Positions 1-62,536 of a DNA stretch of 64,000 nucleotides are shown piece after piece. Positions within the stretch are counted from its first letter, which is position 1. Every line of letters begins with the position of its first letter. Under the pieces are notes generated by a model that had not been told where the DNA came from, searched no databases, and was given only the letters and a program-made list of their open reading frames with translations. Origin of the DNA: Xestospongia bergquistia (Eukaryota; Porifera; Demospongiae; Haplosclerida; Petrosiidae); assembly GCA_963965975.1 (NCBI GenBank), contig OZ014417.1, positions 3,267,821-3,331,820 on the forward strand, given 5' to 3'. A program made the position numbers and the translations under genes.

Positions 1-3000
1 TTATGTCAACATTACATTAATTGAGACTGGTACAAGTGTGTATTACAATACTATACACACTACCTTTACAATCTCTGAATTAATTCCCTACACTTCATAC
101 TCCTGTATTGTAGCAGCAGCAACTAGTATTGGACGTGGACCATTTACTACTTTCTTCACTATTACAACACCAGAGGATGGTATGATAACTAATAATGAAC
201 AATGAATTTTAGTATTCTCTTCTCAGCTCCCAATAGTCCTCCAGTTATTATTACACATTATGCAATTGACTCCAGGACAGTGGCTTTTCAATGGGATCCT
301 CCTCCACCACAAGATCATAATGGCATTATAAGAGAGTATGTAGTAACAATCTCAATAGTAGGAAGTAATGAAACTCAGACACAAACATTTACTGGCACTA
401 CTGCTATCATTGGGTCACTGATCCCATCATTTACATATCAGTTTACAGTAGCAGCTTACACTATAGCAACTGGACCATACAGTACTAGTGTTAATATTAC
501 TTTACCAGAAGATGGTTAGTTACTTCAATTGACAAGTATCTTTGTCATTTTTAAATATATTCTTCATAGTTCCAAGTGGATTCCCACAAGATGTGTCTGT
601 TAACAATACAACACCCTATTCTATTTCTCTTATGTGGAGTTCACTTCCACCAAATCAACAGAATGGGGACATCATACGCTATGTAATCAATGTAACTCAT
701 GCTGATACTTTAGAAAACATACAGTATTACAGTACTATGACTAGTATTACTATAACTGGACTAGATCCATATACTACATATGTATGTGTAGTAGCTGCTG
801 AGACAACTATTGGAGTTGGACCATTTAGTCACTTGTTCTTTGTACAAACAAAGGAAGCAGGTACTGTAACTAGTAAACATCTTAAATTTACTTCAAATCT
901 TTCAACAGCACCTGATAGTCCTCCTCAACATCCCAGTGCTATAGCTCTTAGTCCAACTAGTATCCACATTACTTGGGATCCTCCAATTCTACAATATCAT
1001 AATGGTGTCATTAGAGAATATCGTATCAATATAACAGAGGCATTGACAGGTCTTCAAATACAAGAGATCACCAATCAAACTCAAATAATCATTGATGGAC
1101 TAAAACCTTACCACATATATCACTGTTATATTGTAGCTGTCACAGTAGATGAAGGACCTTACACAGTGGCTGTGTCTGTTCTAACTAAAGAAGCTGGTAT
1201 GTATGCTAACAATGATTTATTTCATCTTATTCTTAAAATATAGCACCATCTGCACCACCTCAGTCATTGGTTGTGTCAGTAACCAGTTCTACTTCAATGT
1301 TCATTTCATGGGATCAACCTCCTGCACTTACACAAAATGGAATTATTAGAGAATATTCTGTTATAATACATAATGTAAAGTCTGGAGTGGACCTAACATT
1401 CTTTACATTCCACACTCAGTTAAATATATCTGTTCTCAGTCCATATACTACATATAGTGTAAAGGTAACTGCTATCACTGTTGGTTCTGGTCCATTTACT
1501 AATACCTTCAATATCACCACTCTTCAAGATGGTATGTACATAAAATGCAAATTGTTGTTCTAATGTCTTGTTACAGTACCCATAAGTCCTCCAGAACAGT
1601 TCAATGCATCAGCAGTAAATGGAGTTAGTCTTCAATTACAGTGGTCACCTCCCAATCCATCTGGAACTAATGGGATTATTCAATACTACAATATAACTAT
1701 TGTAGAACAAGAAACTGGCACTGTTTTCTACAGTACAACAACATCTATGTCTATAGTAGTTTCAACCCTTCATCCTTATTACACATATAAGTGTGCAGTG
1801 TCAGCAGTGACTGTAGGGAATGGACCAGTGGCTAGTTTTGTCATACAAATGCCAGAAGAAGGTTTGTAATACAATTATTGAATTTATTGATATCTTTATA
1901 TATAGGTCCTGCTAGTGGTCCAGATAATGTAATATCTACACATATAACATCTACAGTCATTACTATTATGTGGGATGAGTTACCCAGTGAAGATTCAAAT
2001 GGTATCATTAGATACTACCTAGTGAATGTAACAGAGACAAATACTGGATACCATTATCAAACTACATCAACTACTACAGACATTGCTCTTACTATTCTAC
2101 ATCCATATTATACATACAGTATAACTGTAGCAGCTTACACTATAGAAGAAGGACCTTTCTCTGCTCCTGTGACTTTTACTACATTACAAGATGGTGTGTC
2201 TATCATTGGTATCACATTTGTCAACAATCTTTTTTAAATATAGTACCCTCTAGTCCTCCTATAAGTTTAAGTGTCACTGTAGAGAGCTCATCACTTATTT
2301 ATATTGAATGGTCTCCACCTCCATCATCTGAACATAATGGAGTGATAACTGGTTATAATATATCTCTTATTGACACTACAACTGGACATGAGATCTATTT
2401 AGTATCTCATAATATATCCATCTCTGTTGATTCACTCCACCCATATACTATATATCAATACAGAATTGCTGCTTTCACATCAGTTGGACTAGGACCATAT
2501 TCCAATCTATTAACATTTCAAACACAAGAATCAGGTATATGATAATGACACTGATCACATCTTTTTAGTGCTACTTCATATACAGCACCTTCTTCATCTC
2601 CTAACAATGTATCAATAGTAACTGTAACATCAACTACAATAATACTATCTTGGCTACCTCCACCACCCAACAGTCATAATGGTATTATCAGAAATTATGT
2701 GATAACACTTCAAGAGATCAACACTGGCACAACACTATATTACAATGTTACAGATACAGAAATCACTGTATCTTCTCTTCATCCATATTATATGTATGAG
2801 TGTAGAATAGCTGCAGTTACTGTGTCAACAGGACCATTTAGTACTGTACTTACTGTAATAACAAAACAAGCTGGTAAGAAAACATGATATATTATTAAAT
2901 ACTGATTACCATTTACTTTAGCTCCAAGTAGTCCACCAACTGCAGTAACTGTGATAGCAGTAGACTCATTCACTCTTAATATTACCTGGGGACAGCCTCC

Positions 3001-6000
3001 CATTGATCAGATCAATGGAATTATCCAAAGTTATGCTATTTCAGTGTCTGTTATGGAAGCATTAGATCATTATCAGTACACCAGTTATAGTACAAGTCTA
3101 CTACTTACTGATCTTCATCCATATTACACATATACTGTATTAGTTGCTGCAGTTACTGTAGATACTGGACCCTATTCAATTGGATACACTATCAAAACAC
3201 CATCTAATGGTAAGATTTTTAAATTGTTCTTCTAGTAAACATATTTTAACTATAAGTATGCATGGTTATTTTTAGTCAAATAATGACAACATTTTGTTAA
3301 AAATTTATTATTGAAGTGTTGAATTGATTTACTACATGTTTATTGTTTATAGCTCCTAGTGGTCCACCTCAATATATTAGTGGCATTGCAGTGAGCTCAA
3401 CTAAAATACAGTTATCATGGGAACCTCCTTTATCTCATCATCAAAATGGAGTGATACAATCATACACTATCACTGTATTTGAAGTGAACACTAACACTAC
3501 TCATGAAGTCCATCAAGACATCTTAAATACTAGTATCACTTTAACTGGACTCCATCCTTATTATGAATATAAATTATCAGTAGCAGCATACACTGTTGGA
3601 TTAGGTCCATCTTCATTTGTTTATGTGACAACATTACAAGATGGTCAGTACTCACATATTAATGACTAAACTGTTATTGGTCTATTCTATAGTTCCTACT
3701 GGATCTCCAAGATATTTGACTGTCAATATTACTAGCTCCTCTACTGTGGTACTACATTGGAGTCCTCCAGATTCTCATCTCTTAAATGGTTTTATCCAAC
3801 ATTATATTATCACGCTAATCAACAGTGAAACTGGAGAGTCAACATTGTTGACATCAGAAAATACAACTTTCTATATCACTAACTTACATCCATTTTATAC
3901 ATACAGTTGTAGTGTTGTTGGTGTAACAGTTGGTTCTAGTCCTGCTATTAACATCTCATTTCAAATGCCTGAAGATGGTAAGTGATGAAGTTTAGACATA
4001 TATACAATTCTTTAAACCCAATACAGTACCATCAGCTTCACCAAATGCTCTTGTTGTATCTTTTATAACTTCAACCAGTGCACTACTCTCTTGGAGTCCA
4101 CTGTTAGCTCCTGAACATAATGGTGTTATAACAGGATATTCAGTTACAGTTGTTAAGATCACCTCTTCAGAGACAGTGACATATACAACCACTAACCACA
4201 CACTGACTGTAACTGCTCTACTTCCATATACTAACTACAAATTTACAGTAGCAGCAAGTACTAATGAAGGACTAGGACCAAACTCAGATTTTTTATCATT
4301 TCAAACTTTACAAGATGGTAAGTTTTCATCATATATATGCTATATTTGTTATCTTTTATATCAGCACCTTCTGCTTCTCCTTCATATGTAATGGCAAATA
4401 ATTTGTCATCAAATTCATTCACATTGAGCTGGCAGCCACCACCTCAAAATACTCATAATGGAATAATAATTGGCTATGATATTACTACACTAGAAATAAA
4501 CTCTGGCACAACATACACTAACTTTACATCACATACTTTTATTGTCCTCAATTTCTTACATCCTTACTATCAATACAACTGTACAGTAGCTGCTATGACT
4601 GTATCAGTGGGTCCTACCAGTGACATAGTAACTATACAAACATTACAAGCAGGTATGTTTTTTAAATGTTACTACTAGTTAATTTGTTGTATTTTTCTAT
4701 TGTAGCTCCTAGTAGTCCACCAAGGTTATTGGTTGTCACTGCTATGAACTCTCACTCAATCAACATATCTTGGAGTCCTCCTCCTGTGAATAAAGTCAAT
4801 GGAATTATCCAGTATTATTTTGTCATTATATCTGTAATGGAGACCTCACAGACTCTTTACTTTCAAACTAGTGATACATCTGTCTCATTAAATGATGTTC
4901 ATCCTCACTACACATACACTGTTGTAGTGGCTGCTGTTACAATAGCAATTGGACCATTCTCAACAGAGCAGTCCATTACTACTCCACAAGATGGTAATTA
5001 TCTATAATAGTTTGATGTTATAGTTTATTCACTTATTTACTTAGTACCATCTGGACAACCTCAAAATGTATCTGCTGTTGTTTTAAATGCTACAGCTATT
5101 CAATTATATTGGAGTCCTCCATTGGAACATGAACAAAATGGAATTATCACATCATACACAGTTGTAGTATTTGAAGTCAATACCAATAATACCATTGGAA
5201 GTTGGAGTGATAACTTAAAGTCAAATGTGATTATAAGCAATCTTCATCCATATTATGAATACAGGTTGTTAGTGGGAGCAGCAACAGTTATTGGATTAGG
5301 TCCATTCTATGAAGTACAAGTACAGACTGATCAAGCAGGTACATTTAGAAAGAAAGAAATTTCAATAAAAATTACTATTATTTTTCACAGCACCTAGTGT
5401 TGCACCACAGAATGTACTAGTTAATGTAACAAGTTCATCTTCTGTCACTATACAATGGAGCCCTCCAGATTTGGATGAACAAAATGGAGTTATTATTCAC
5501 TACATTGTCACTATTTTAGACACACAGAGTGATACTACAATGATTTATAATGTTACTGAACTGGTCCTTTATATCAATGATCTACATCCATTTTACATTT
5601 ATAAATGTAGTGTAACAGCAATAACAATTGATCCCAGTCCTGAGGCTGTTAAACTCTTTCAAATGCTAGAAGATGGTTAGATACATCTACTATTATTTAG
5701 CATAAAAATCATTTTCCTTTATCTTTAGTTTCATCTGGACCACCAACTAATGTTACAATTACAGTATTGAGTTACAATTCTCTTATAATCACCTGGTTTC
5801 CACCTATAATGTCCTTACAAAATGGTATCATCAGAGAATATACTGTCATTATTAATGATGTTAACACAAAATCATCTCAAACTGTTTCAGTGATCAATAA
5901 AACCAACATTATAATATCTGATTTGAAATCATTTCATACTTATAGTATGCTAGTGTCTGCATCTACTGTTGGGTTAGGACCATTTGCTGAACCAGTAACT

Positions 6001-8393
6001 ATACAAATGCCTGAATCAAGTAAATTAATAGATATATTGTCTGGCTGGCTACACTAGTACTTTTTAATTTACAGGTCCTGGATCATCTCCATCTAACTTT
6101 TTGGCTGAAAAAGAAAGTAATTTGACATTACATCTCTCTTGGGTGTCTCCTCCTAAAGAAGATCATAATGGTATTATATTGGGCTATGAATTAACCTGTT
6201 CTGGACAAAATAACCACACTATATCTATAAAAATATCAGGAACAAGTGTCTCATTATTTGATTATCAAAACAATACACACTATGCTTGTACAGTATGTGC
6301 TTATACATCTGCTGGATGTGGACCATATGCTGTGACTTATGTCAGTACATATACAAATTGTAAGTTTCTTGACATGCATATGAATGTTATGATTGAATCA
6401 TTTACAGCTCCAGTTGGTCCTCCTCACTCACTGACTGCCAGCACTACAGCTACAGAGATACACTTACAATGGCAAACTCCATTTGATCCTGAGTCTGTAA
6501 TCCAAAGCTTTGCTATCACATATCAATTGATAGACACAGTATTTCCTATCACAACACCTCGTCCAGAAGTGACTATCGCTGACATCACAAATACTACATA
6601 TGTAGTTCAACCACTATTGGTTTCATCAACTTACAAGCTAGTAATATTTGCAGTGACTCCTGAAGGTACTGGACCAGTTAGTGAAAAGATAGTGGTAACA
6701 ACAAATGAACCAGGTATAACTTATTTTAATGCTTGCCAATATACATCATTGATGATGTTTTTATTTGTAGCTCTACATGCACCACAAAATCTTAAATGTC
6801 TTCCAACAAGTTCAAAGAATCTCTTTTGTACTTGGGAAGCTCCTTCACTATCTGATTATCAAGTGACCAGTTATGAACTAAGTTATAAACTAGTAGATGG
6901 ATTTGACTACTACCCTGGATATGGGGAGATGTTGGGTGTATTTACCTTGTCATCTGAGACACAGCAGTATGACATCAGTGATCTGTTACCTTATGGTGGT
7001 TATCAAGTTGAGGTAAAAGTTCATCTCTCTTCAGTTACTAAAGGGATAGGATATTCAGGTGATTCAGGTTTATTGACACCAGGAGACCTAGTTGTTGAAA
7101 GTTCAACAACTGTCAATATTACATATGCTGAAGGTAAATATGAAGTTATTGTGATATGGTGTATTTAACTTTATTACAACAGCTCCTACAGTTCCAGTGA
7201 AAGACACTTCTCTTGAGGTAGTGTCTCCAACATCTGTAAGAGTATCTTGGAAACCTCCAAACAAGAAAGAATGGAAGGGCAAAATTAATACATACAAGAT
7301 AACTGCTATTCGTCTGGGTCCTAACCAAGGAATTGAGAAGAGAGCTGAACGACTAAACAATATTATTACTCTGTTACCTCAAGCTAACAATCCTGATCCT
7401 AGTTTGGCAATGGAACCATTGCAATCAGAACATTATTTAATTCAAAGATTAGAAGAGAATTATGAATACACCTTTTCAATTAATATTATCAATGCTGGTG
7501 GAAGTGGATTGCCTTCTACTCCAATATCACAAATAATGCCTCAAGCAGGTCAGTAGCTAGACAATATGTACATACATATTGTTGTTATTATAGCTCCTTC
7601 TGGACCTCCTGTCAATATAACACTTGTTAGTGTTAGTATTTCCTCTATCAATATAACATGGTTACCACCTCATCCTTTGGACGCTAATGGAATAATCACT
7701 GGATATAGAGTATTGTTTACAAGAATAGAAATCAAAGAGACTGCAGAGTATATCTTACAACCTGAGGAGACTTCATTCTTTAAAAGTGGTCTGTGTAATT
7801 TAATTAATAAGACATATTAGTTGTCATATTATATATAGGACTACACTACTATGAACATGTTAGTATACAAATAGCAGCTAAAACTGTTGTTGGTTGGGGA
7901 CCTTTATCATCTGAACATTATTTCTTTACAAGTGAAGACAGTAAGTTACTTTCTAAATTCCACAATCTGTTCTATAAATACAATTTATAGGATCAAGTCC
8001 TCCTCAATCTTTAAAAGCTACTATTATAAATGATACTACAATTCTATTGACTTGGAAACCACCAGTTGATGCTAAAGGAGTTATAGTTGGATATCAAGTG
8101 ATTTACTCTGGATATGGAGGATCAACAGTAAAATATTAATATTAATTGATTGTGTGTATACAGTAGTTGATACTATCATAGGTTGAACGTGATGGACCTT
8201 ATTTAAGAAATGTGCCTATTTCAGAAAATTTACAAGTAGTAATTACAACTTTAGTTCCTGGACTATTCTATGAGTTTAAGGTAAATGATCACTTAAATGA
8301 GGTAATATTCAACATCAGTACAGATTCGAGCAATAAATAGTGCAGGAACTGGAAATAATGCAAGTGTTGTTATAGCATTGCCTAAAACAGATA
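1..8393 (+). other. Gene A FN3 array, exon map
   Basis: Inferred exons: 1-179 (partial), 227-514, 570-860, 909-1196, 1244-1531, 1577-1861, 1906-2193, 2244-2534, 2586-2873, 2922-3209, 3353-3643, 3693-3977, 4027-4317, 4365-4652, 4706-4993, 5045-5338, 5391-5675, 5729-6019, 6075-6359, 6408-6713, 6771-7133, 7183-7548, then split FN3s 7594-7788+7839-7940 and 7991-8127+8182-8280+8324-8393. Each domain shows the FN3 signature: an early W in strand B, a W-x-P-P turn, an NG-x-I-x-x-Y motif, then an L-x-P-Y-x-x-Y segment and a V-A-A-x-T run before a G-P. The last membrane-proximal FN3s are longer (306-366 nt) and more divergent. The array holds one copy of the five-domain block that is present three times in gene B, so it probably reflects the simpler ancestral order. 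Confidence 0.85.
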
Positions 8394-9066
8394 GTAAGTA
8401 ACTGTATTTGTTTAGTCGACAATGTATGGACTCATAATGGTTTGAATCAACTTGGCTATTTGTGTTTCATTTTGACTTTAAATTATAGCAACTAGTGTAA
8501 TCACTGATTCTCACGAAGGAATTCGTAGAGATACTATTTTATCAATTGTTATACCTGTTGGATCAATTCTAGCTGTCTTAATTGTACTTGTGCTTTTAGT
8601 TTTATATATTGTGAGGAGTATGAAGAAAAACAGAAAACAGAAGTAAATTATAACTTGTATTATTAGTGTAATTGTTGTATTACTGTAATTAGACAAGATT
8701 TGAATTGTGATGAGCCATTTATAGTTATAAATCCTTCAACTCAATCACCGACTCTTGACAGAGCTCAAACTGTTTCACTGAGGTCATTTACATTGAGGGT
8801 TGTGGATGAAGAAGGTGTAAGACCTGCTGAGAATGAATATGACATTGGAACAACTCAGATGAATTTTGTTGATGAGGTCAGTATGTATAGGTCTACCTTG
8901 TGATAATAATATATACTAACTTGTGTAGATTGAAGATCCCAAGTTAACTGATGATAGAAATGGTAATTGCAACATTCACATAATTATGCATTAACGTTTT
9001 AGTATAGAACATAATGACTCTGATGATGAAGAGGCCAAAGTAGAAAACGAGCTGAGATATATCTAA
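1..9066 (+). CDS. Gene A (5'-truncated): giant FN3-repeat single-pass membrane protein
   Basis: This is the 3' portion of a multi-exon gene whose start lies left of the window. About 31 exons can be read, giving about 2479 residues in one frame with no stop; the first base is the third position of a codon. It encodes about 24 tandem FN3 domains, one transmembrane helix and a cytoplasmic tail ending at the TAA at 9064-9066. Nearly every FN3 is one phase-1/phase-1 exon. From the second exon on it runs parallel to gene B at an offset of 18,285 bp until gene B's internal block expansion. By analogy with animal FN3 receptors it is probably a type I cell-surface adhesion or recognition protein. The head is unknown because it is outside the window. 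N-glycosylation sequons are abundant. Confidence is high for the FN3/TM architecture and low for function. Confidence 0.9.
8489..9066 (+). other. Gene A transmembrane exon and cytoplasmic tail
   Basis: Exons 8489-8642, 8693-8876, 8929-8962 and 9008-9066. The first encodes a hydrophobic segment of about 25 residues rich in I/L/V, followed by a basic stop-transfer run (R-S-M-K-K-N-R-K-Q-K), so the FN3 side is extracellular. The tail is acidic near its end (D-D-E-E) and finishes in L-R-Y-I. It shares an E-Y-D-I-G-T-T-Q-M-N-F segment with gene B. The 8693-8876 exon corresponds to two exons in gene B (30489-30593 and 30648-30714), so an intron is missing here. Confidence 0.85.
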
Positions 9067-33599: not shown

Positions 33600-33655
33600 A
33601 CTACCAAATGTAATACTCCAAAATGTAATACTGCCAAATGTAATATTGTCAATAT
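33600..33655. repeat. Short tandem repeat
   Basis: Three imperfect units of about 16 bp containing ccaaatgtaatact follow each other. The ORF that crosses them is repeat-derived and not supported as a gene. Confidence 0.6.
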
Positions 33656-33703
33656 AATGTTGTAACGTTAGTGTATAATGCGTTATTACTTCTCATTTAT
33701 GTA

Positions 33704-46900: not shown

Positions 46901-49900
46901 TGCAACAGTTACCTCCCCTTACTCTGCTGTACTCACTTGGGCTCCACCTCTTCTAGATCAACAACTTGACAGTGTTATTGTTTACATCATCAATGTCACG
47001 ATATTAGAGACCAATGAAACCTTTCTTCTCTTTTCCAACACTACTTCACTGACAGTTAATGGTCTCAGACCTTTTAGGAACTATATATTTATTATTGCTG
47101 CTCAAAACAGTATTGGTATTGGACCATACAGTGCTGTCTTCATAATCACCACTCCACAAGATGGTATTTACATTATGTCCTGTAAAATAACCTGTATATA
47201 TTTAGTCTTCACATCAATATTACTGTTCTCTCTCTCTCTTTCTCTTTCTCTCTCTCAGCTCCTTCAGCTCCACCTACTATGTCCCTCACTTCATCAATAA
47301 CTTCAAAAGGATTTACCATTAGTTGGAATCCACCAGGATATAACAATCAAAATGGAGTCATTATTTACTATTATGTTTCTATAGTAGAAGTTGAGACTGG
47401 TTCTATTTTCCAGTATATTTCCTACACTACTACACTTACTATACAATCTCTTCATCCAGCTTATACTTACCAATATAGAATTGCTGCATACACTATAGGA
47501 TTGGGACCATACTCTGATCCAATCAATATTACAACAGCTGAGGAAGGTAAACCGTTATGTCCTTTAAATGTTGTAATTTTTTTCTGTAGCTCCAAGTCAA
47601 GCTCCTCAAAGTTTATCTGGTATTGCATCTTCATCAACTTCTATTACTTTTTCATGGAGTCCACCACTTCCTGAATATAGGAATGGACTGATTATCTCAT
47701 ATTATGTCAACATTACATTTATTCAGACTGGTATATATGTGTGTTACACAACTAAAGACACTACCTTTACAATCACTGGATTAATTCCCTACACTTCATA
47801 CTCCTGTATTGTAGCAGCAGCAACTAGTATTGGACGTGGACCATTTACTACTTTGTTAACTATTACAACACCAGAGGATGGTATGATAACTAATAATATT
47901 ATCAATGAATTATACTTGTCTCTTTAGCTCCAAAAAGTCCTCCAATTATTACTACATATTATGCAATTGACTCCAGGACAGTGGCTTTTCAATGGGATCC
48001 TCCTCCACCACAAGATCATAATGGCATTATAAGAGAGTATGTAGTAACAATCTCAATAGTAGGAAGTAATGAAACTCAGACACAAACATTTACTGGCACT
48101 ACTGCTATCATTGGGTCACTGATCCCATCATTTACATATCAGTTTACAGTAGCAGCTTACACTATAGCAAGTGGACCATACAGTACTAGTGTTAATATTA
48201 CTTTACCAGAAGATGGTTAGTTACTTTAAGGGACAAGCATCTTTGTCATTTTAAAATATATATTCTTCATAGTTCCAAGTGGATTCCCACAAGATGTGTC
48301 TGTTAACAACACAACACCCTATTCTATTTCTCTGAAGTGGAATCCGCCTCCTTCAAAACAACAAAATGGAGCTATCATTCGTTACATTGTCAATGTCACT
48401 AATATCGATACTTTAGAAACCATACAGTATTATAGTACTGTAACTAGTATTACTATAATTGGACTAGATCCATATACTACGTATGTATGTGTAGTAGCTG
48501 CTGAGACAACCATTGGAGTTGGACCATTTACTCACTCATCCTTCACAATTCAAACAAAAGAAGCAGGTACTATTTGTACTAGTTATTAATAAACCTTAAT
48601 TTAATATAACCTTCCACAGCACCTGATAGCTCTCCTCAACATCCCAGTGCTATAGCTCTTAGTCCAACTAGTATTAACATTACTTGGGATCCTCCAATTC
48701 TAAAAGATCACAATGGTGTCATTAGAGAATATCGTATCAATATAACAGAGGCATTGACAGGTCTTCAAATACAAGAGATCACCAATCAAACTCAAATAAT
48801 CATTGATGGACTAAAACCTTACCACATATATCACTGTTATATTGTAGCTGTCACAGTAGATGAAGGACCTTATACAGTGGCTGTGTCTGTTTTAACTAAA
48901 GAAGCTGGTAAGTATGCTGACAATGATTTATTTCATCTTGTTCTTAAAATATAGCACCATCTGCACCACCTCAGTCATTGGTTGTGACAGTAACCAGTTC
49001 TACTTCTGTGTTTATTTCATGGAATCCACCTCCTGCACTTACACAAAATGGAATTATTAGAGAATATTCTGTTATAGTACATAATGTAAAGTCTGGAGTG
49101 GACCTAACATTCTTTACACTCCATACTCAGTTAAATATATCTGTTCTCAGTCCATATACTACATATAGTGTAAAAGTAGCTGCTATCACTGTTGCTTCTG
49201 GTCCATTTACTAATACCTTCAATATCACCACTCTTCAAGATGGTATGTACATAAAATGCAAAAAATGCAAATTGTTATTCTAATGTCTTGTTACAGTACC
49301 CACAAGTCCTCCAGAACAGTTCAATGCATCAGCAATAAATGGAGTTAGTCTTCAATTACAGTGGTCACCTCCTAATCCATCTGGAAGTAATGGAATTATT
49401 CAATACTACAATATAACTATTGTGGAACAAGAAACTGGCACTGTTTTCTACAATATAACAACATCTATCTCTATAATTATTTCAAATCTTCATCCTTATT
49501 ACACATACAAGTGTACAGTGTCAGCAGTGACTATAGGGAATGGACCAGTGGCTAGTCTTGTCATACAAATGCCAGAAGAAGGTTTGTGATACAACTATTT
49601 AATTTATAAATATCTTTCTGCCTATAGCTCCTGCTAGTGGTCCAGATAACATAATATCTACACATATAACATCTACAGTCATTACTATTATGTGGGATGA
49701 GTTACCCAGTGAAGATGAAAATGGTATCATTAGATACTACCTAGTGAATGTAACAGAGACAAATACTGGATACTATTATCAAACTACATCAACTACTACA
49801 GACATTACTCTTAGTAATCTACATCCATATTATACATACAGTGTAACTGTAGCAGCTTATACTATAGAAGAGGGACCTTTCTCTACTCCTTTGTTTATTA

Positions 49901-52900
49901 CTACATTACAAGATGGTATGTCTATCATTGGTATCATATGTATTATAAATCTCTTTAAAATACAGTGCCTTCTAGTTCTCCTATAAGATTAAGGGTCACT
50001 GTAGAGAGCTCATCACTTATTTATATTGAATGGTCTCCACCTCCATCATCTGAACATAATGGAGTGATAACTGGCTATAATATATCTCTTATTGACACTA
50101 CAACTGGTCATGAGATCTATTTAGTATCTCATAATATATCCATCTCTGTTGATTCACTCCATCCATATACTATATATCAATACAGAATTGCTGCTTTCAC
50201 ATCAGTTGGACTAGGACCATATTCCAATCTAGTAACATTTCAAACACAAGAATCAGGTATATGATAATGACATTGATCAAATTGTTTTAGTATTACTTCA
50301 TATACAGCACCTTCTTCATCTCCTAAGAATGTATCAGTAGTAACTGTAACATCAACTACAATAAAGCTATCTTGGCTACCTCCACCACCCAACAGTCATA
50401 ATGGTATTATCAGAAGTTATGTGGTATTACTTCAAGAGATCAACACTGGCACAATACTATATTACAATGTTACAGATACAGAAATCACTGTATCTTCTCT
50501 TCATCCATATTATATGTATGAGTGTAGAATAGCTGCAGTTACTGTGTCAACAGGACCATTTAGTACTGTACTTACTGTAATAACAAAACAAGCTGGTAAG
50601 AAAACATGATATATTATTAAATACTGATTACCATTTACTTTAGCTCCAATTGGTTCACCTACTGATATAGTTGTGATAGCAGTAGATTCATTCACTCTTA
50701 ATATTACCTGGGGACAACCACCTATTGATCAGATCAATGGAATTATCCGATATTATATTGTTTTAGTGTCTGTTTTGGAAACATCAAATCACTTTCAGTA
50801 CAATAGTTCTGATACAAGTCTTCTTCTCACTAAACTTCATCCATATTACACATATACTGTATTAGTTGCTGCAGTTACTGTGGGTACAGGACCCTATTCA
50901 ATTAGTGACGCTATCAAAACCCCATCTAGTGGTAAGATTATGTTCTTTTTTTCAACTATAATAATAAAGAAGTTGTAAATATATATAAACCTTTTAACAT
51001 CTATGAATCATTGACTTACTAATATTCATCATTTATATTTAGCTCCTAGTGGTCCACCTCAATATATTAGTGGCATTGCATTGAGTTCTACTAAAATACA
51101 TTTATCATGGGAACCTCCTTTATCTCATCATCAAAATGGAGTGATACAATCATACACTGTCACTGTATTTGAAGTGAACACTAACACTACTCATGAAGTC
51201 CATCAAGACATCTTAAATACCAGTATCACTTTAACTGGACTCCATCCTAATTATGAATATAAATTATCAGTAGCAGCATACACTGTTGGATTAGGTCCAT
51301 CTTCATTTGTTTATGTAACCACATTACAAGATGGTAAGTACTCATATTCAAATTAATAATTATCATTGCAAAATTGATTAAATCAATCAATTCACAGTGA
51401 TTCAGGTTGCATTGTATGATATTTAAGTTAACTGATTCAAAGTACATTCATTGATTATTACTAATAATATCCTCTATAACTTGAGAGTTCATATGAAGAT
51501 TTTCTTTTATTCCTAGACACAAAATAGGTCTAATGCTATGGAATTTGTACCTAACATAAATCATTAAAAAACAATATGAAGTATCAATTCCATAGTAGTT
51601 AGTAAGCAAAACAGTATAGGTTGTTAATGCTGTGCTTATAAGTATCATGTAATCCAAGCAAACATGACATGAAATGACTATTAATTGGTTGATTCAACCA
51701 ATTAATATTTAATTTGATATAATTTTATTTCACTTTCTGTTACAGTTGTTGATTGTGGAGTACCACATGTAATGTCTGGTTACTATGGAAATTTAACTGT
51801 AAAATTCCCTTCAACTACATACAATAGTACAGCCATATATATTTGCATGAACAATGGATATAGACTAGTTGGAGAATCTACAAGAGTTTGTAATGCCAAT
51901 GGAAGCTGGTCTGGTAATCAACCAAAGTGTGGTGGTAAGTAAACTTTCTTATTACATAATGTGCATAACTTTTCACATAAAGCTGTTCCTCAAAATGTTT
52001 CGGGAAATGCTACAAGTGCTTCATCTATTAAGCTATCATGGACTCTACCACTTCAACCAAATAACATCACAGATTATATTAAGTATTACATAACTGAAAT
52101 TAAAGACCTGAAATCTGGTCAAATCATCACTAACAGATCTACTGAACAATTAGTAGTTATAGAATCCTTACATCCTTACTATACTTATTTGTGTAGAGTT
52201 GCTATTTTCACCAGCTATCTTAACCCTTACTCTGATTACATTTCTATTGAAACACTTCAAGCAGGTATGTACAATTGATTACACTATTAATGTCATTACA
52301 TTGTTTAAAGCACCCAACTCTTCACCACAAAATGTATCAATACAAGTTTATAACTCCACCTCCTTAAACTTATCCTGGATTGTACCACCAGTTGAGCATC
52401 ATAATGGAATCATTCAATATTACATAATATGGATGAGAGTTATCAATACAGGATACAGTGAAAACTTCACTTCATACAATACATGGATTGTTCTTACCTC
52501 TTTACATCCATATTACACTTACATCTTCCAAATAGCTGCTGTCACTGTAGAACAAGGTCCATTTTCAACAAATATTTCTATCACAATGCCTGAAGCAAGT
52601 TAGTACAATGTTATGATATAGTAACTATTACTTCACTTTGTTCCATTCAGTTCCTTCTACTTCACCTCTTAAAATTTCTGGGCGTGTTATTGATTCAAAT
52701 ACAATATTTCTTTCATGGTCTCCTCCATTACCTCAAAATCAAAATGGAATTATTAGACAATATATTATAAAGATTACTGAGATATTGAGTAATAGTACAT
52801 CTACTAATTATTCCACTAACAATTCAATTACCATTAATTCTCTACATCCTAACTATTATTACAATCTATCAGTTAGTGCTGTAACTATATCCTCTGGTCC

Positions 52901-55900
52901 TTTTTCACAACCAATTACCTTCAAAACAGATGAAGCTAGTATGTTTCTATTATATGCTGTTATTAATTATTATAATAATAATTGTAGCACCCAGAAGTTC
53001 CCCAAAAGATATCAATGCAACAGTTACCTCCCCTTACTCTGCTGTACTCACTTGGGCTCCACCTCTTCTAGATCAACAACTTGACAGTGTTATTGTTTAC
53101 ATCATCAATGTCACGATATTAGAGACCAATGAAACCTTTCTTCTCTTTTCCAACACTACTTCACTGACAGTTAATGGTCTCAGACCTTTTAGGAACTATA
53201 TATTTATTATTGCTGCTCAAAACAGTATTGGTATTGGACCATACAGTGCTGTCTTCATAATCACCACTCCACAAGATGGTATTTACATTATGTCCTGTAA
53301 AATAACCTGTATATATTTAGTCTTCACATCAATATTACTGTTCTCTCTCTCTCTTTCTCTTTCTCTCTCTCAGCTCCTTCAGCTCCACCTACTATGGCCC
53401 TCACTTCATCAATAACTTCAAAAGGATTTACCATTAGTTGGAATCCACCAGGATATAACAATCAAAATGGAGTCATTATTTACTATTATGTTTCTATAGT
53501 AGAAGTTGAGACTGGTTCTATTTTCCAGTATATTTCCTACACTACTACACTTACTATACAATCTCTTCATCCAGCTTATACTTACCAATATAGAATTGCT
53601 GCATACACTATAGGATTGGGACCATACTCTGATCCAATCAATATTACAACAGCTGAGGAAGGTAAACCGTTATGTCCTTTAAATGTTGTAATTTTTTTCT
53701 GTAGCTCCAAGTCAAGCTCCTCAAAGTTTATCTGGTATTGCATCTTCATCAACTTCTATTACTTTTTCATGGAGTCCACCACTTCCTGAATATAGGAATG
53801 GACTGATTATCTCATATTATGTCAACATTACATTTATTCAGACTGGTATATATGTGTGTTACACAACTAAAGACACTACCTTTACAATCACTGGATTAAT
53901 TCCCTACACTTCATACTCCTGTATTGTAGCAGCAGCAACTAGTATTGGACGTGGACCATTTACTACTTTGTTAACTATTACAACACCAGAGGATGGTATG
54001 ATAACTAATAATATTATCAATGAATTATACTTGTCTCTTTAGCTCCAAAAAGTCCTCCAATTATTACTACATATTATGCAATTGACTCCAGGACAGTGGC
54101 TTTTCAATGGGATCCTCCTCCACCACAAGATCATAATGGCATTATAAGAGAGTATGTAGTAACAATCTCAATAGTAGGAAGTAATGAAACTCAGACACAA
54201 ACATTTACTGGCACTACTGCTATCATTGGGTCACTGATCCCATCATTTACATATCAGTTTACAGTAGCAGCTTACACTATAGCAAGTGGACCATACAGTA
54301 CTAGTGTTAATATTACTTTACCAGAAGATGGTTAGTTACTTTAAGGGACAAGCATCTTTGTCATTTTAAAATATATATTCTTCATAGTTCCAAGTGGATT
54401 CCCACAAGATGTGTCTGTTAACAACACAACACCCTATTCTATTTCTCTGAAGTGGAATCCGCCTCCTTCAAAACAACAAAATGGAGCTATCATTCGTTAC
54501 ATTGTCAATGTCACTAATATCGATACTTTAGAAACCATACAGTATTATAGTACTGTAACTAGTATTACTATAATTGGACTAGATCCATATACTACGTATG
54601 TATGTGTAGTAGCTGCTGAGACAACCATTGGAGTTGGACCATTTACTCACTCATCCTTCACAATTCAAACAAAAGAAGCAGGTACTATTTGTACTAGTTA
54701 TTAATAAACCTTAATTTAATATAACCTTCCACAGCACCTGATAGCTCTCCTCAACATCCCAGTGCTATAGCTCTTAGTCCAACTAGTATTAACATTACTT
54801 GGGATCCTCCAATTCTAAAAGATCACAATGGTGTCATTAGAGAATATCGTATCAATATAACAGAGGCATTGACAGGTCTTCAAATACAAGAGATCACCAA
54901 TCAAACTCAAATAATTATTGATGGACTAAAACCTTACCACATATATCACTGTTATATTGTAGCTGTCACAGTAGATGAAGGACCTTATACAGTGGCTGTG
55001 TCTGTTCTAACTGAAGAAGCTGGTAAGTATGCTGACAATGATTTATTTCATCTTGTTCTTAAAATATAGCACCATCTGCACCACCTCAGTCATTGGTTGT
55101 GACAGTAACCAGTTCTACTTCTGTGTTTATTTCATGGAATCCACCTCCTGCACTTACACAAAATGGAATTATTAGAGAATATTCTGTTATAGTACATAAT
55201 GTAAAGTCTGGAGTGGACCTAACATTCTTTACACTCCATACTCAGTTAAATATATCTGTTCTCAGTCCATATACTACATATAGTGTAAAAGTAGCTGCTA
55301 TCACTGTTGCTTCTGGTCCATTTACTAATACCTTCAATATCACCACTCTTCAAGATGGTATGTACATAAAATGCAAAAAATGCAAATTGTTATTCTAATG
55401 TCTTGTTACAGTACCCACAAGTCCTCCAGAACAGTTCAATGCATCAGCAATAAATGGAGTTAGTCTTCAATTACAGTGGTCACCTCCTAATCCATCTGGA
55501 AGTAATGGAATTATTCAATACTACAATATAACTATTGTGGAACAAGAAACTGGCACTGTTTTCTACAATATAACAACATCTATCTCTATAATTATTTCAA
55601 ATCTTCATCCTTATTACACATACAAGTGTACAGTGTCAGCAGTGACTATAGGGAATGGACCAGTGGCTAGTCTTGTCATACAAATGCCAGAAGAAGGTTT
55701 GTGATACAACTATTTAATTTATAAATATCTTTCTGCCTATAGCTCCTGCTAGTGGTCCAGATAACATAATATCTACACATATAACATCTACAGTCATTAC
55801 TATTATGTGGGATGAGTTACCCAGTGAAGATGAAAATGGTATCATTAGATACTACCTAGTGAATGTAACAGAGACAAATACTGGATACCATTATCAAACT

Positions 55901-58900
55901 ACATCAACTACTACAGACATTACTCTTAGTAATCTACATCCATATTATACATACAGTGTAACTGTAGCAGCTTATACTATAGAAGAGGGACCTTTCTCTA
56001 CTCCTTTGTTTATTACTACATTACAAGATGGTATGTCTATCATTGGTATCATATGTATTATAAATCTCTTTAAAATACAGTGCCTTCTAGTTCTCCTATA
56101 AGATTAAGGGTCACTATAGAGAGCTCATCACTTATTTATATTGAATGGTCTCCACCTCCATCATCTGAACATAATGGAGTGATAACTGGCTATAATATAT
56201 CTCTTATTGACACTACAACTGGTCATGAGATCTATTTAGTATCTCATAATATATCCATCTCTGTTGATTCACTCCACCCATATACTATTTATCAATACAG
56301 AATTGCTGCATTCACATCAGTTGGACTAGGACCATATTCCAATTTATTGACATTTCAAACACAAGAATCAGGTATATGATAATGACATTGATCAAATCTT
56401 TTTAGTATTACTTCATATACAGCACCTTCTTCATCTCCTAAGAATGTATCAATAGTAACTATAACATCAACTACAATAAAGCTATCTTGGCTACCTCCAC
56501 CACCCAACAGTCATAATGGTATTATCAAAAGTTATGTGGTAAAACTTCAAGAGATCAACACTGGCACAATACTATATTACAATGTTACAGATACAGAAAT
56601 CACTGTATCTTCTCTTCATCCATATTATATGTATGAGTGTAGAATAGCTGCAGTTACTGTGTCAACAGGACCATTTAGTACTGTACTTACTGTAATAACA
56701 AAACAAGCTGGTAAGAAAACATGATATATTATTAAATACTGATTACCATTTACTTTAGCTCCAATTGGTTCACCTACTGATATAGTTGTGATAGCAGTAG
56801 ACTCATTCACTCTTAATATTACCTGGGGACAACCTCCTATTGATCAGATCAATGGAATTATCCAATATTATATTGTTTTAGTGTCTGTTTTGGAAACATC
56901 AAATCACTTTCAGTACAATAGTTCTGATACAAGTCTTCTTCTTACTAAACTTCATCCATATTACACATATACTGTATTAGTTGCTGCAGTTACTGTGGGT
57001 ACAGGACCCTATTCAATTAGTGACGCTATCAAAACCCCATCTAGTGGTAAGATTATGTTCTTTTTTTCAACTATAATAATAAAGAAGTTGTAAATATATA
57101 TAAACCTTTTAACATCTATGAATCATTGACTTACTAGTATTCATCATTTATATTTAGCTCCTAGTGGTCCACCTCAATATATTAGTGGCATTGCATTGAG
57201 TTCTACTAAAATACATTTATCATGGGAACCTCCTTTATCTCATCATCAAAATGGAGTGATACAATCATACACTGTCACTGTATTTGAAGTGAACACTAAC
57301 ACTACTCATGAAGTCCATCAAGACATCTTAAATACCAGTATCACTTTAACTGGACTCCATCCTAATTATGAATATAAATTATCAGTAGCAGCATACACTG
57401 TTGGATTAGGTCCATCTTCATTTGTTTATGTAACCACATTACAAGATGGTAAATATTCATTTGTTAATGACTAAACTACTATTGATCTATCCTATAGTTC
57501 CTAATGGATCTCCAAGATATTTGACTGTCAATATTACTAGCTCCTCTACTGTGACACTACATTGGAGTCCTCCAGATTCTCATCTCTTAAATGGTGCTAT
57601 CCAACATTATATTATCACACTAAGCAACACTGAAACTGGGCAGTCAACATTGTTGACATCAGAAAATACAACTTTCTATATAAATAACTTACATCCATTT
57701 TATACCTACAGTTGTAGTGTTGTTGCTGTAACAGTTGGTTCTAGTCCTGCCATTAACATCTCATTTCAAATGCCTGAAGATGGTAAGTGAGAAGGATCAG
57801 ACCAATATACAATTCTCTAAAGACTATACAGAGCTTTAAATTGGTTTTTAATTACTTATACTATAATTTTGTCTTCTATATATGTATATATATCAGCACC
57901 TTCTGCTGCTCCTTCAATTTTAATGGCAAATAATGTGTCATCAAATTCATTCACATTGAACTGGCAGCCACCACCTCAAAATACTCATAATGGAATAATA
58001 ATTGGCTATGATATTACTACACTAGAAATAAACTCTGGCACAACATACACTAACTTTACATCACATACATCTATTGTCCTCAATTTCTTACATCCTTACT
58101 ATCAATACAACTGTACAGTAGCTGCTGTGACTGTATCAGTAGGTCCTACCAGTGACATAGTAACTATACAAACATTACAAGCAGGTATGTTTTTTAAATG
58201 ATACTGCTAGTTAAATTGCTGTAATTTTCTATTGTAGCTCCCAGTAGTCCACCAATGTTATTGATTGTCTCTGCTATGAATTCTCACTCAATCAACATAT
58301 CTTGGAGTCCTCCTCCTGTGAATAAAGTCAATGGAATTATCCAGTATTATTTTGTCAATATATCTGTAATGGAGACCTCACAGACTCTTTACTTTCAAAC
58401 CAGTGATACATCTGTCTCATTAAATGATGTTCATCCTCACTACACATACACTGTTGTAGTGGCTGCTGTTACAATAGCAATTGGACCATTCTCTACAGAG
58501 CAGTCCATTACTACTCCACAAGATGGTAATTATCTATAATAATTTGACATTATAGTTTATTCACTTATATACTTAGTCCCATCCGGACAACCTCAAAATG
58601 TATCTGCTGTTGTTTTAAATGCTACAGCTATTCAATTATATTGGAGTCCTCCATTGGAACATGAACAAAATGGAATTATCACATCATACACAGTTGTAGT
58701 ATTTGAAGTCAATACCAATAGTACTATTGGAAGTTGGAGTGATAACTTAAAGTCAAATGTGATTATAAGCAATCTTCATCCATATTATGAATACAGGTTG
58801 TTAGTGGGAGCAGCAACAGTTATTGGATTAGGTCCATTCTATGAAGTACAAGTACAGACTGATCAAGCAGGTACATTTAGAAAGAAATATTTAAAAAAAT

Positions 58901-61900
58901 TACTATTGCTTTTCACAGCACCTAGTGTTGCACCACAGAATGTACTAGTTAATGTAACAAGTTCATCTTCTGCCACTATACAATGGAGCCCTCCAGATTT
59001 GGATGAACAAAATGGAGTTATTGTTCACTACATGGTCACTATTTTAGACACACAGAGTGATACTACAATGATTTATAATGTTACTGAACTGGTCCTTTAT
59101 ATCAATGATCTACATCCATTTTACATTTATAAATGTAGTGTAACAGCAATAACAATTGATGCCAGTCCTGAGGCTGTTACGTTCTTTCAAATGCTAGAAG
59201 ATGGTTAGATACATCTACTATTATTTAGCATAAAAATCATTTTCCTTTATCTTTAGTTCCATCTGGACCACCAACTAATGTTACAATCACAGTATTGAGT
59301 TATAATTCTCTTATAGTCAGCTGGTTTCCACCTATAATGTCCTTACAAAATGGTGTCATCAGAGAATACACTGTCATCATTAATGACATTAACACAAAAT
59401 CATCTCAAACTGTTTCAGTGATCAATAAAACTAACATTATAATATCTGATTTGAAGTTATTCCATACTTATAGTATACTAGTGTCTGCATCTACTGTTGG
59501 GTTAGGACCATTTGCTGAACCAGTAACTACACAAATCACTGAAGCAAGTAAGTTAATAGATATATTGTCTGGCTGGCTACATTAATACTTCTTAATGTAC
59601 AGGTCCTGGATCATCTCCATCTAACTTTTTGGCTAAAAAAGAAAGTAATTTGACATTACATCTCTCTTGGGTGTCTCCTCCTAAAGAAGATCATAATGGT
59701 ATTTTATTGGGTTATGAATTAACCTGTTCTGGACAAAATAACCACACTATATCTATAAAAATATCAGGAACAAGTGTCTCATTATTTGATCTTCAAAACA
59801 ATACACACTATACTTGTACAGTATGTGCTTATACATCAGCTGGATGTGGACCATATGCTGTGACTTATGTCAGTACATATACAAATTGTGAGTTTCTTGA
59901 CATGTATATGAATGTTGATTGAATCTTTTATAGCTCCAGTTGGTCCTCCTCACTCACTGACTGCCAGCACTACAGCTACAGATATACACTTACAATGGCA
60001 AACTCCATTTGATCCTGAGTCTGTAATCCAAAGCTTTGCTATCACATATCAATTGATAGACACAGTATTTCCTATCACAGCACCTCGTGTAGAAGTGACT
60101 ATAGCTGACATCACAAATACTACATATGTAGTTCAACCACTATTGGTTTCATCAACTTACAAGCTAGTAGTATTTGCAGTGACTCCTGAAGGTACTGGAC
60201 CAGCTAGTGAAAAGATAGTGGTAACAACAAGTGCACCAGGTATGACTTATATTAATGCTTGCCAATATACATCATTGATGATGTTTTTATTTGTAGCTCT
60301 ACATGCACCACAAAATCTTAAGTGTCTTCCAACAAGTTCAAAGAATCTCTTATGTACTTGGGAAGCTCCTTCAATATCTGATTATCAAGTGACCAGTTAT
60401 GAACTTAGTTATAAACTAGTAGATGGATTTGACTACTACCCTGGATATGGAGAGGTGTTGAGTATATTTACCTTGTCAACTGATACACAGCAGTATGACA
60501 TCAGTGATCTGTTACCTTATGGTGGTTATCAAGTTGAAGTAAAAGTTTATCTCACTGCAGTTATTAAGGGGTCAGGATATTCAGATGATTCAGGTTTACC
60601 AGTTGGAAGATCAACAACAGTCAATATTACATATGCTGAAGGTAATAATCATATTATTTGTTATACGGTATCTACAAATTTAATTCACTAGCTCCCACAG
60701 TTTCAGTGAAAAACATTTCTCTTGAGGTAGTGTCTCCAAAATCTGTAAGAGTATCTTGGAAACCTCCAAACAAGAGAGAATGGAAAGGCAAAATTAATGC
60801 TTACAAGATAACTGTTGTTTGTCTAGGTCCAAATGAAGGAATCACAAGCAGTTGTGAATTACAAGATAGCAACATTGCTGTGTTACCTCAAGCTAACAAT
60901 CCTGATCCTAGTTTGGCAATGGAACCATTACAACCAGAACAATATTTAATTAAAGGATTAGAAGAGAATTATGAATTCACCTTTTCAATCAATATTATCA
61001 ATGCTGGTGGAAGTGGATTGCCTTCTACTCCTATATCACAAATAATGCCTCAAGCAGGTCAGTAGCTAGATAATATGTACATACATCAATTTGTTATTAT
61101 AGCTCCTTCTGGACCTCCTGTCAATATAACACTTGTTAGTGTTAGTATTTCCTCTATCAATATAACATGGTTACCACCCGATCCTTTGGATGCTAATGGA
61201 ATAATCACTGGATATAGAGTATTGTTTACAAGAATAGAAATAAAAGAGACTACAAAATGTATTGTACCACCAGAGGAGACTTCATTCTTTAAAAGTGGTT
61301 TGTGTAATTTTAAAACAAGTCACATTGGTTATTGTATCATATAGGACTTCATTACTATGAAAATGTCAGTATACAAATAGCAGCTAAAACTGTTGTTGGT
61401 TGGGGACCTTGGTCATCTGAACATTACTTCTTAACAAGTGAAGACAGTAAGTTACTTTCTAAATTCCACAGTCTGTTCTATAAATACAATTTATAGGATC
61501 AAGTCCTCCTCAATCTTTGAAAGCTACTATTATAAATGATACTACAATTCTATTGACTTGGAAACCACCAGTTGATGCTAAAGGAGTTATAGTTGGATAT
61601 CAAGTTATTTACTCTGGATATGGACAATCTACAGCAGTAAGTTGTTCTCCTCATTGTATATAGTATTTGATACTGTCATAGACTGAATGTGATGGACCTT
61701 ATTTAAGAAATGTGGCAACATCAGAAAATTTACAAGTAGTAATCATTGGTTTAGTGCCTGGGCTATTCTATAAGTTCAAGGTAGACAATCACTTAAAGGA
61801 AGTAATATTCAACATCAGCACAGGTTCGAGCAATAGATGGAGCAGGAAATGGTAGAAATGCTTATGTGACATTATTATTGTCTATAAGTCCTACAATAGA

Positions 61901-62536
61901 TCGTAAGTGAATTAGTTTATATAAGTATGGAATCTTTAACTGTAGCAAAACAAATTTTATGTTTAAATGGATTTAATTTACATTTTAGCCGATACCACTC
62001 AAGCATCTGATAGATATAATATTTTTGTAATTGTCATACCCATTGGACTATTTCTAGCTGTCATAATTGCACTATTACTTTCAGTTGTCTGTATTATGGT
62101 AATTGTGAAGAGGTGTAAAAAACAAAAGTGAGCTACAATTGAAAGAAATTTTAATGATAAATAAATATGTTCAGATATAATAATGAACCAGTTACTATTG
62201 AAAATTCTTCATTGCAATTGCCACTTCGTGACACAAGGTCTGAACATATATCTACCAAAGTAGTCACATTAGATATTTGTCTTATACTCACAGACAAGAC
62301 AGAAGAACTGAAAATGACAGAGGAATAAGTCAGATTAATTTCACTGAAAATGTATGATATACTATAATTTTTAATGTTTGGTCAACAATTGTATATTACA
62401 GCCTGGAATAGAAGACTCCAAAGTTATAGTTAATAAAACAAATCAAATAACAGGCATTGGTAAGATTAAAATATAGTTCTTGTATGTGTGTGATTACAAT
62501 TTTACAGATGAAAGTCCTGAAGAGAGTGTGGTTTGA
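37021..62536 (+). CDS. Gene C: NIDO/Sushi(8)/FN3(~60) giant single-pass receptor
   Basis: A complete gene of 80 inferred exons. Exon lengths sum to 20,106 nt, giving about 6701 aa. Order: signal peptide (M-S-S-Y-L-F-V-L-L-F-L), NIDO (to ~254), five Sushi (~255-564), then three 1602-residue cassettes (each one Sushi plus 16 FN3; ~565-2166, 2167-3768, 3769-5370), 12 more FN3, TM (~6598-6626) and a ~75-residue tail ending E-S-V-V. NIDO+Sushi+FN3 is reminiscent of the matrix protein SNED1, but EGF repeats are absent and a TM is present. The likely role is cell-surface or matrix adhesion or recognition. The three cassettes are nearly identical, so copy number may vary between alleles or be affected by assembly. 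The stop is the TGA at 62534-62536. Confidence 0.87.
37985..39116 (+). other. Gene C exons 5-9: five Sushi/CCP domains
   Basis: Exons 37985-38173, 38226-38414, 38466-38651, 38703-38891 and 38940-39116 each encode one Sushi domain. Each has four Cys in the expected order, a Y-S-C or Y-G-S-T-V-T-Y-S-C centre and a G-x-W before the final P-x-C-Q. All borders are phase 1. The donor after exon 9 (CAAG|gtcaac) is weak; reading through gives a stop at about 39131. Confidence 0.9.
39125..45238 (+). repeat. Gene C cassette A (Sushi + 16 FN3)
   Basis: First of three tandem 6.1-kb units. Exons: Sushi 39510-39698; FN3 39747-40028, 40075-40362, 40415-40702, 40752-41042, 41144-41431, 41475-41765, 41813-42100, 42158-42451, 42505-42792, 42840-43127, 43182-43466, 43513-43800, 43851-44141, 44193-44480, 44529-44816 and 44928-45218. 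It differs from B and C by a 6-bp longer CT tract (41106-41140), a gtaggt donor at 40703 and scattered substitutions. The upstream junction lies in the intron after Sushi 5. Confidence 0.87.
41106..41140 (+). repeat. CT microsatellite in cassette A (variable length)
   Basis: A (CT)n/(CTTT)n tract directly before the AG acceptor of the FN3 exon at 41144. The counterparts near 47228-47255 and 53343-53370 are 6 bp shorter, which accounts for the offset change between cassettes. Confidence 0.85.
45239..51353 (+). repeat. Gene C cassette B (Sushi + 16 FN3)
   Basis: Second unit, 6121 bp (before the CT tract) or 6115 bp (after it) downstream of A. Exons: Sushi 45631-45819; FN3 45868-46149, 46196-46483, 46536-46823, 46873-47163, 47259-47546, 47590-47880, 47928-48215, 48273-48566, 48620-48907, 48955-49242, 49297-49581, 49628-49915, 49966-50256, 50308-50595, 50644-50931 and 51043-51333. 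The intron before its Sushi contains a 27-bp palindrome (45565-45591) that is absent from A and present in C. Some exons carry substitutions not shared by A or C. Confidence 0.87.
51354..57448 (+). repeat. Gene C cassette C (Sushi + 16 FN3)
   Basis: Third unit, constant 6115-bp offset from B. Exons: Sushi 51746-51934; FN3 51983-52264, 52311-52598, 52651-52938, 52988-53278, 53374-53661, 53705-53995, 54043-54330, 54388-54681, 54735-55022, 55070-55357, 55412-55696, 55743-56030, 56081-56371, 56423-56710, 56759-57046 and 57158-57448. After the last FN3 it continues into the gene-A-like order (57498 onward) rather than another Sushi, so this end is the original right flank of the duplication. Confidence 0.87.
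57498..61902 (+). other. Gene C membrane-proximal FN3 array
   Basis: FN3 exons 57498-57782, 57897-58184, 58238-58525, 58577-58870, 58919-59203, 59257-59547, 59603-59887, 59934-60239, 60297-60641 and 60692-61057. Split FN3s follow: 61103-61297+61345-61446 and 61497-61636+61682-61780+61824-61902. The order matches genes A and B, except that the P-S-A-S-P-N-A-L type FN3 expected between 57782 and 57897 is missing. The 60297 exon is 18 nt shorter than its paralogues (in frame). Confidence 0.85.
61989..62536 (+). other. Gene C transmembrane exon and cytoplasmic tail
   Basis: Exons 61989-62127, 62175-62237, 62294-62351, 62402-62459 and 62508-62536. The hydrophobic segment I-F-V-I-V-I-P-I-G to I-M-V-I-V is followed by K-R-C-K-K-Q-K. 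The tail is much diverged from genes A and B and ends E-S-V-V, which fits a class I PDZ-binding C-terminus (S/T-x-hydrophobic). Confidence 0.82.

Follow-up and report, generated by a model that had tools for sequence, protein, structure and literature searches.

Usherin (USH2A), a type I membrane protein of giant size, has a very long FN3 stalk and a short tail; it carries a laminin-type head and is encoded by a single gene, with no tandem cluster of other heads known. The Geodia aggregation receptor is a sponge surface receptor with Sushi and FN3 modules. In the class 1-1 modular metazoan proteins (Patthy; PMC8001218), FN3, Sushi, VWA and Ig modules are mostly bounded by phase-1 introns, and gain or loss of a whole module keeps the reading frame. 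The Alr complex of Hydractinia combines a tandem layout with donor exchange (PMC3276163), and its proteins have Ig-like (V-set, I-set) ectodomains, hypervariable domains and a known phenotype (PMC3276163, PMC11999971). Sponge SRCR and other modular receptors use Sushi and FN3 modules, with tandem duplication and changing domain number (PMC8242945, PMC10855680). Here we analyzed a 64,000-nucleotide stretch of the Xestospongia bergquistia genome (OZ014417.1, positions 3,267,821-3,331,820, forward strand, one haplotype; hereafter the window). It holds three giant receptor genes, A, B and C, arranged in tandem on the (+) strand, each with a stalk of FN3 domains in its spliced model. These genes are probably old paralogs whose stalks were homogenised by non-allelic recombination while their ends diverged, the stalk serving as a spacer for binding heads; we put the probability of this reading at about 0.62.

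The cluster resembles each of the described systems in part. As in class 1-1 proteins, the FN3 exons are separate modules (110 with AG/GT borders, bounded by phase-1 introns), and hydropathy maxima alone suggest a receptor layout of signal peptide, one transmembrane (TM) helix and tail, with a signal-like N-terminal stretch in B and C and, in all three genes, a TM helix that lies 76-124 residues before the C-terminus. Unlike class 1-1 proteins in general, recent stalk homogenisation between neighbours appears to be still visible here, together with hybrid exons. The giant type I form, FN3 stalk and short tail are shared with usherin, from which the locus differs in its heads and in its number of genes. 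A first-pass annotation of this DNA had likened it to the Hydractinia Alr and Botryllus recognition loci. The likeness of style stands, since a tandem family of TM receptors is accompanied by exchange between loci (three genes, hybrid exons, clustered site patterns) and by relics. However, Ig V-set/I-set-like ectodomains do not run through the family (the one Ig domain is in B, and C has NIDO and Sushi), and the cluster is therefore not filed as an Alr member. Sponge SRCR receptors differ in that Pfam reported no SRCR domain in the pieces searched here. Gene C is like SNED1 (name: PMC5662763) in that a single protein combines NIDO, Sushi and FN3 domains. It differs in having 56 canonical FN3 domains, a TM helix and, by Pfam, no EGF family in its head. 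SNED1 is a secreted protein that contains EGF repeats and has few FN3 domains, and its layout of NIDO, Sushi, EGF and FN3 is not the one predicted for C. No such cluster is named in the open-access literature searched, a result that does not show the cluster to be unpublished.

FN3 exons were located with a hidden Markov model (HMM) built from 89 seed exons, which gave 131 matches on both strands, weak and split ones included; 110 full-length exons were retained, with the borders of 5/110 adjusted by hand. Heads and 3' ends, that of C included, were spliced by hand at GT-AG sites with no base altered. All models are thus predictions from FN3 HMM matches and splice sites. None of the spliced models has an internal stop, and pseudogene status was ruled out for B and C, whose reading frames are open throughout. 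A protocadherin-like scheme, in which several heads would share a single 3' part, was likewise ruled out, as A, B and C each have their own stalk, TM helix and tail. Introns are mostly ~50 bp (median 49-50 bp in the gene models) and GC content of the window is 33%; in Amphimedon queenslandica, the genome has 36% GC and introns 31%, and the median intron length is 81 bp across the genome and 68 bp among genes for ribosomal proteins (PMC3412847). Pfam searches covered the heads of B and C and, of the membrane-proximal modules, that of A. Coordinates of all features are given in Table 1.

Typing of the 110 FN3 exons by single linkage at 72% identity (19 exons in A, 35 in B, 56 in C) yielded 28 types. 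In B the order is T1-T3, T4-T12, T13-T17 three times and T18-T25; in C, a set consisting of T26-T28 and T4-T16 occurs three times and is followed by T17 and T19-T25; in A, T7-T25 follow a partial T6, the window start aligning within the T6 exon of B. The order T4-T25 is thus common to the genes, in A from T7. Different types are mostly ~35% identical, so the fixed order is no chance match. Introns are of phase 1 in 26/30 cases in A, 45/50 in B and 71/76 in C. The first-pass annotation had described a tandem cluster of giant FN3 receptors in which B and C share FN3 order and exon phases, A has the same stalk under an unseen head, and an order-preserving stalk is combined with unrelated N-terminal domain sets. 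These points were borne out by open models of three same-strand genes, by the typing, by Pfam and by phase-1 joins, with the head of A beyond the window. The cluster had been drawn to position 62536; the tandem genes were confirmed, and the coding end of C falls at 62328 in our model.

The point at which the stalk begins differs from the one first proposed. Heads had been described as joining the array at a phase-1 intron just before homologous first FN3 exons (16455 in B, 39747 in C). The phase-1 join is present, but FN3 no. 1 of B and C lie at the identity background (median of all pairs 35%, 95th percentile 46%, counting pairs of one type as well; Table 1). Distant homology is likely for FN3 no. 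2, because 55% exceeds that 95th percentile. Synonymous sites of the three exons are near saturation (proportion of synonymous differences, pS, in Table 1). Exon identity between B and C at the DNA level (length-normalised, C unit 3) is 63/72/66% for FN3 nos. 1-3 and 86-99% from FN3 no. 4 to T25, and blastn similarity begins at 17423 in B and at 40729, 46850 and 52965 in C, each within the intron between FN3 nos. 3 and 4. A head/stalk break just before FN3 no. 1 was therefore rejected, and on the predicted models FN3 nos. 1-3 belong with the head and not with the shared stalk. An ordinary GT-AG intron (54 bp in B, 48 bp in C) links the final exon of the head with FN3 no. 1, and head and stalk are for this reason read as one gene.

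Because constraint on the protein has little effect on synonymous change, we compared synonymous divergence (dS, Nei-Gojobori) between the stalk, pooled from the first copy of each type per gene, and the 3' ends. Pooled stalk dS was 0.080 for B-C (21 exon types), 0.054 for A-B (19) and 0.076 for A-C (18). For the TM exon the values were 0.196 (A-B), 0.562 (B-C) and 0.397 (A-C), and for the first tail exon 0.390, 0.694 and 0.835, respectively. Fisher tests of the stalk against TM plus first tail exon, on rounded counts, gave 2.9e-5 for A-B, 3.1e-11 for B-C and 6.1e-10 for A-C. Since synonymous divergence is higher at both ends of the stalk, we read A, B and C as apparently old genes with a homogenised stalk.

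Traces of recombination, which the first-pass annotation had called visible, are indeed found in the C triplication, the B hybrid exons and blocks, the relics and the site patterns. Site patterns that compare A, B and unit 1 of C are clustered along the stalk (174 runs vs 207.8, standard deviation (sd) 8.3; 168 vs 221.3, sd 8.4), a degree of clustering reached in 0/2000 permutations in each run test. The T13-T17 blocks of B are 91-95% identical, and B18 and B23, which open the second and third block, are hybrid exons. A single breakpoint fits 123/142 sites informative for T13 versus T18, as good a fit as was seen in 0/20000 permutations; among the left 45 sites 33 are T18-like, 7 T13-like and 5 neither, and in the right part 90 are T13-like with only 3 (B18) or 2 (B23) T18-like. 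In C, a unit of Sushi6 and 16 FN3 exons is present in three copies of ~6.1 kb with all borders intronic. The copies are 98.4% (units 1+2 vs 2+3) or 97.6% (1 vs 3) identical, with coding dS of 0.007-0.011. Because Sushi6 is intact in each unit, internal Sushi domains are predicted within the C stalk. T18 is absent from C, lost between two introns.

These data suggest that A, B and C diverged as old paralogs and that gene conversion, unequal crossing over and block transfer homogenised their stalks. As nearly all stalk introns are of phase 1, blocks could be gained, lost or joined within introns with the frame kept, as in the C triplication and the loss of T18, and crossovers within exons would yield hybrid FN3 domains such as those in B. 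The stalk may act as a long spacer rich in N-glycosylation that keeps the head, with VWA/Ig or NIDO/Sushi, well away from the cell surface; heads may bind ligands for adhesion or for the capture of particles, microbes or matrix, and the tail may be a short adaptor or sorting tail. N-glycosylation sequons numbered 45 in A (28.7, sd 4.8, after shuffling), 94 in B (55.5, sd 6.3) and 170 in C (87.6, sd 7.4).

Several points weigh against this interpretation. The sequon shuffles disregard the repeat nature of the domains, so that the counts are non-independent. The membrane-proximal FN3 domains have intermediate dS (0.07-0.22), which makes a gradient and no sharp edge. Within the stalk dS varies widely between exons (0 to 0.37; T8 is high in every gene pair), TM and first tail exon supply just ~52-54 synonymous sites, and local mutation rate or alignment error could lie behind part of the gradient. 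A and B are 92.7% identical over a 7 kb DNA alignment that runs through TM, tail and ~280 bp past the stops, and the 3' break is therefore clear mainly for C. Lastly, the first three informative sites of B18 and B23 are T13-like, as are 7/45 left sites, and the introns upstream are no clear copy of the T18 intron; their history was therefore not one clean crossover.

The alternative that fares best, with not quite an even chance, is that these are ordinary structural adhesion or matrix receptors, with the stalk as a mechanical spacer and near-neutral gains of repeats. Adhesion and matrix proteins commonly have long FN3 stalks and VWA, Ig, NIDO and Sushi domains, and a single FN3 is similar to FN3 domains found in LAR-type phosphatases, contactins and integrin beta-4 (one FN3 exon had no relatives in the genome-contig and viral-contig collections searched). 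Stalk dN/dS between the genes, a comparison of paralogs, is 0.54-0.57, suggesting that the stalk is under mild constraint, that is, purifying selection on average. Such a role does not by itself account for three different ends on a homogenised stalk, nor does it conflict with them. No RGD motif occurs in the A, B or C models.

It is unlikely that the heads were swapped recently, with a young duplicate of a stalk gene acquiring a new head through recombination within the intron that precedes FN3 no. 4. The 5' drop is sharp, from 90% exon identity at FN3 no. 4 to 66-71% at FN3 no. 3, and lies in a phase-1 intron; intergenic DNA holds head relics, one of them ~430-445 bp upstream of the B start; and class 1-1 modules are classical material for shuffling (PMC8001218). 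However, TM and tail exceed the stalk in synonymous divergence, A-B included, and the FN3 no. 2 exons of B and C are mutual best partners among different types (55%), which suggests an old common head-proximal part. The description of the heads as 'swapped' does not agree with a synonymous divergence that rises on both sides of the stalk, unlike the outcome of a single head swap, and 'interchangeable' goes beyond the window, in which two heads are visible and no head type sits on two stalks. A homogenised stalk between old paralogs seems to fit better than head swapping as a demonstrated event.

That the threefold unit of C, and perhaps other copies, reflects misassembly or collapsed haplotypes is rather improbable. 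The near-identity of the units and the similar look of both unit junctions would agree with such an error. Each pair of units nevertheless has its own differences (20-33 synonymous and nonsynonymous differences, sd+nd, in coding sequence), the junctions are intronic with the frame kept and all three Sushi6 exons intact, the B blocks diverge beyond ordinary haplotype error, and the number of units in C has no bearing on the B/C and A/B comparisons.

We consider it doubtful that this is an allorecognition or hypervariable immune locus, in which heads and repeat number would vary between individuals and decide self/non-self. A tandem cluster with relics, unequal crossing over and near-identical recent units would suit it, and sponges use large repertoires of Sushi-, FN3- and Ig-containing receptors (PMC8242945); on the other side, dN/dS in the stalk is below 1 and same-type amino-acid differences among the three stalks show an even spread across the FN3 fold (means per 10 columns 0.045-0.116), with no variable hotspot between paralogs. 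Equally speculative is a receptor-building locus whose stalk is a recombination cassette kept alike by non-allelic exchange, to which any head (with its own FN3 nos. 1-3) and any tail could be joined in frame, with stalk length and internal Sushi copies varying between individuals by unequal crossing over to give a diversified self/non-self or microbe-recognition repertoire.

Under the reading of old paralogs with homogenised stalks, a single 64 kb stretch would display the steps of modular receptor rebuilding (intronic block duplication, hybrid exons and exon loss) together with a middle that is homogenised and ends that are free to diverge. A shared stalk with unlike outer heads and less unlike inner tails is a pattern that could be suited to building new recognition receptors. 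Should individuals differ in their heads or in stalk length, the cluster would be a candidate recognition locus of an early animal lineage; if they do not, it would still illustrate clearly how a spacer between functional ends can undergo concerted evolution.

Table 1. Predicted features of the window in order of position (aa, amino acids).
Feature	Position	Strand	Basis or remarks
Gene A, 3' part	1..9066	+	31 exons, 2479 aa; 5' end cut by window; partial T6, T7-T25, membrane-proximal FN3s, TM, tail; head beyond window
NIDO head start, relic or partial gene	12660..13193 (to 13213)	-	80.4% to 37042-37583
Gene B, complete	13638..30908	+	51 exons, 4548 aa
B head exon 1	13638..14202	+	hydrophobic signal-like start and phrog_3108-like domain (PHROG E 1.4e-9)
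B VWA exon	15074..15646	+	Pfam VWA 1.1e-41
B exon between VWA and Ig, no recognised domain	15693..16031	+	nothing above Pfam cut-off
B Ig exon	16086..16400	+	Pfam Ig_3 6.6e-13
B FN3 nos. 1-3 (T1-T3)	16455..17397	+	36/55/44% aa identity to C; pS 0.77/0.62/0.71
B intron where close similarity to C starts (17423)	17398..17447	+	blastn
B stalk T4-T25	17448..28513	+	FN3 typing; T13-T17 three times
Hybrid FN3 exon B18	22309..22599	+	T18-like first third, T13-like rest
Hybrid FN3 exon B23	24054..24344	+	breakpoint as in B18
B membrane-proximal FN3 module	28571..30189	+	four FN3, several split exons
B TM exon	30288..30441	+	hydropathy
B cytoplasmic tail exons	30489..30908	+	splice model
Sushi relic	31447..31810	+	88.1% to 38746-39096; two Sushi-like pieces mutually out of frame
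Inverted Sushi6 and FN3 no. 1 relic	33960..34424	-	91.4% to 39534-40007
Gene C, complete	37021..62328	+	77 exons, 6683 aa
C head, signal-like start and NIDO	37021..37931	+	Pfam NIDO 4.2e-63
C head, six Sushi exons	37985..39698	+	Pfam Sushi, 6 stretches
C repeat unit 1 (Sushi6, T26-T28, T4-T16)	39125..45232	+	blastn, typing
C FN3 nos. 1-3 (T26-T28), unit 1	39747..40702	+	FN3 typing
C repeat unit 2	45233..51347	+	intact Sushi6 exon 45631-45819
C repeat unit 3	51348..57460	+	intact Sushi6 exon 51746-51934
C stalk T17, T19-T25 and membrane-proximal module	57498..61902	+	T18 absent
C TM exon and short tail exon	61989..62328	+	splice model, hydropathy

The predicted N-terminal domain sets of B and C are unrelated, and the heads are non-alignable. 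For C, the first-pass annotation of NIDO and Sushi was upheld by Pfam; the Sushi domains have four cysteines each, and the head piece also contains a Pfam fn3 match. For B, the annotation had named lysozyme-like, VWA and Ig domains. VWA and Ig were recovered by Pfam. For the first domain, putatively lysozyme-like, no lysozyme family was recovered; it matched phrog_3108, a phage family without assigned function (profile 10-154 of 160). It is 30% identical over 118 residues to a 203-aa protein (L001 2848-3459) of a 636 kb uncultured huge phage, with which it has ET and G-x-WQ residues in common; these may resemble transglycosylase motifs. Searches with the first domain at E<=10 gave no family in Pfam or NCBIfam, and neither PDB (no credible match) nor the viral contig collection yielded a relative; it would be a domain shared by an animal and a phage that lacks a Pfam family. 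For two exons of the B head, AlphaFold models reached mean confidence scores (pLDDT) of 35.6 (first domain, single-sequence) and 48.9, too low for fold searches. The B head piece also scored 24.6 bits with Pfam fn3, just below the 25-bit cut-off. The intron between B exons 1 and 2 (14203-15073) is 871 bp long, the next longest in B being 141 bp.

At the other end of the genes, four atypical FN3 domains form the membrane-proximal module, and Pfam reported four fn3 in A's part. No enzyme domain was found in the tails. Those of A and B (8693-9066, 30489-30908) have ENEYDIG and an acidic C-terminus in common; the C model (62175-62328) stops earlier, without both.

The inverted NIDO piece upstream of B is divergently oriented and matches Pfam NIDO at 3.1e-27 over profile 2-94 of 186, the homology stopping mid-domain. 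Over 135 codons it differs from C with dS 0.241 and dN 0.113. Its NIDO exons are open, with a stop past the end of homology, and it may represent either a relic or a small protein that is secreted. A 137 bp tandem repeat of 1.9 copies (33696-33960) adjoins the inverted Sushi6/FN3 no. 1 relic, and a ~600 bp self-complementary inverted repeat (32223-32818; 75% over 608 columns) is possibly a mobile element. Five flanking open reading frames had no Pfam families. Downstream of C, on the (-) strand, a neighbouring gene contains a fragment of a class C G-protein-coupled receptor (62889-63248; Pfam 7tm_3 4.5e-11).

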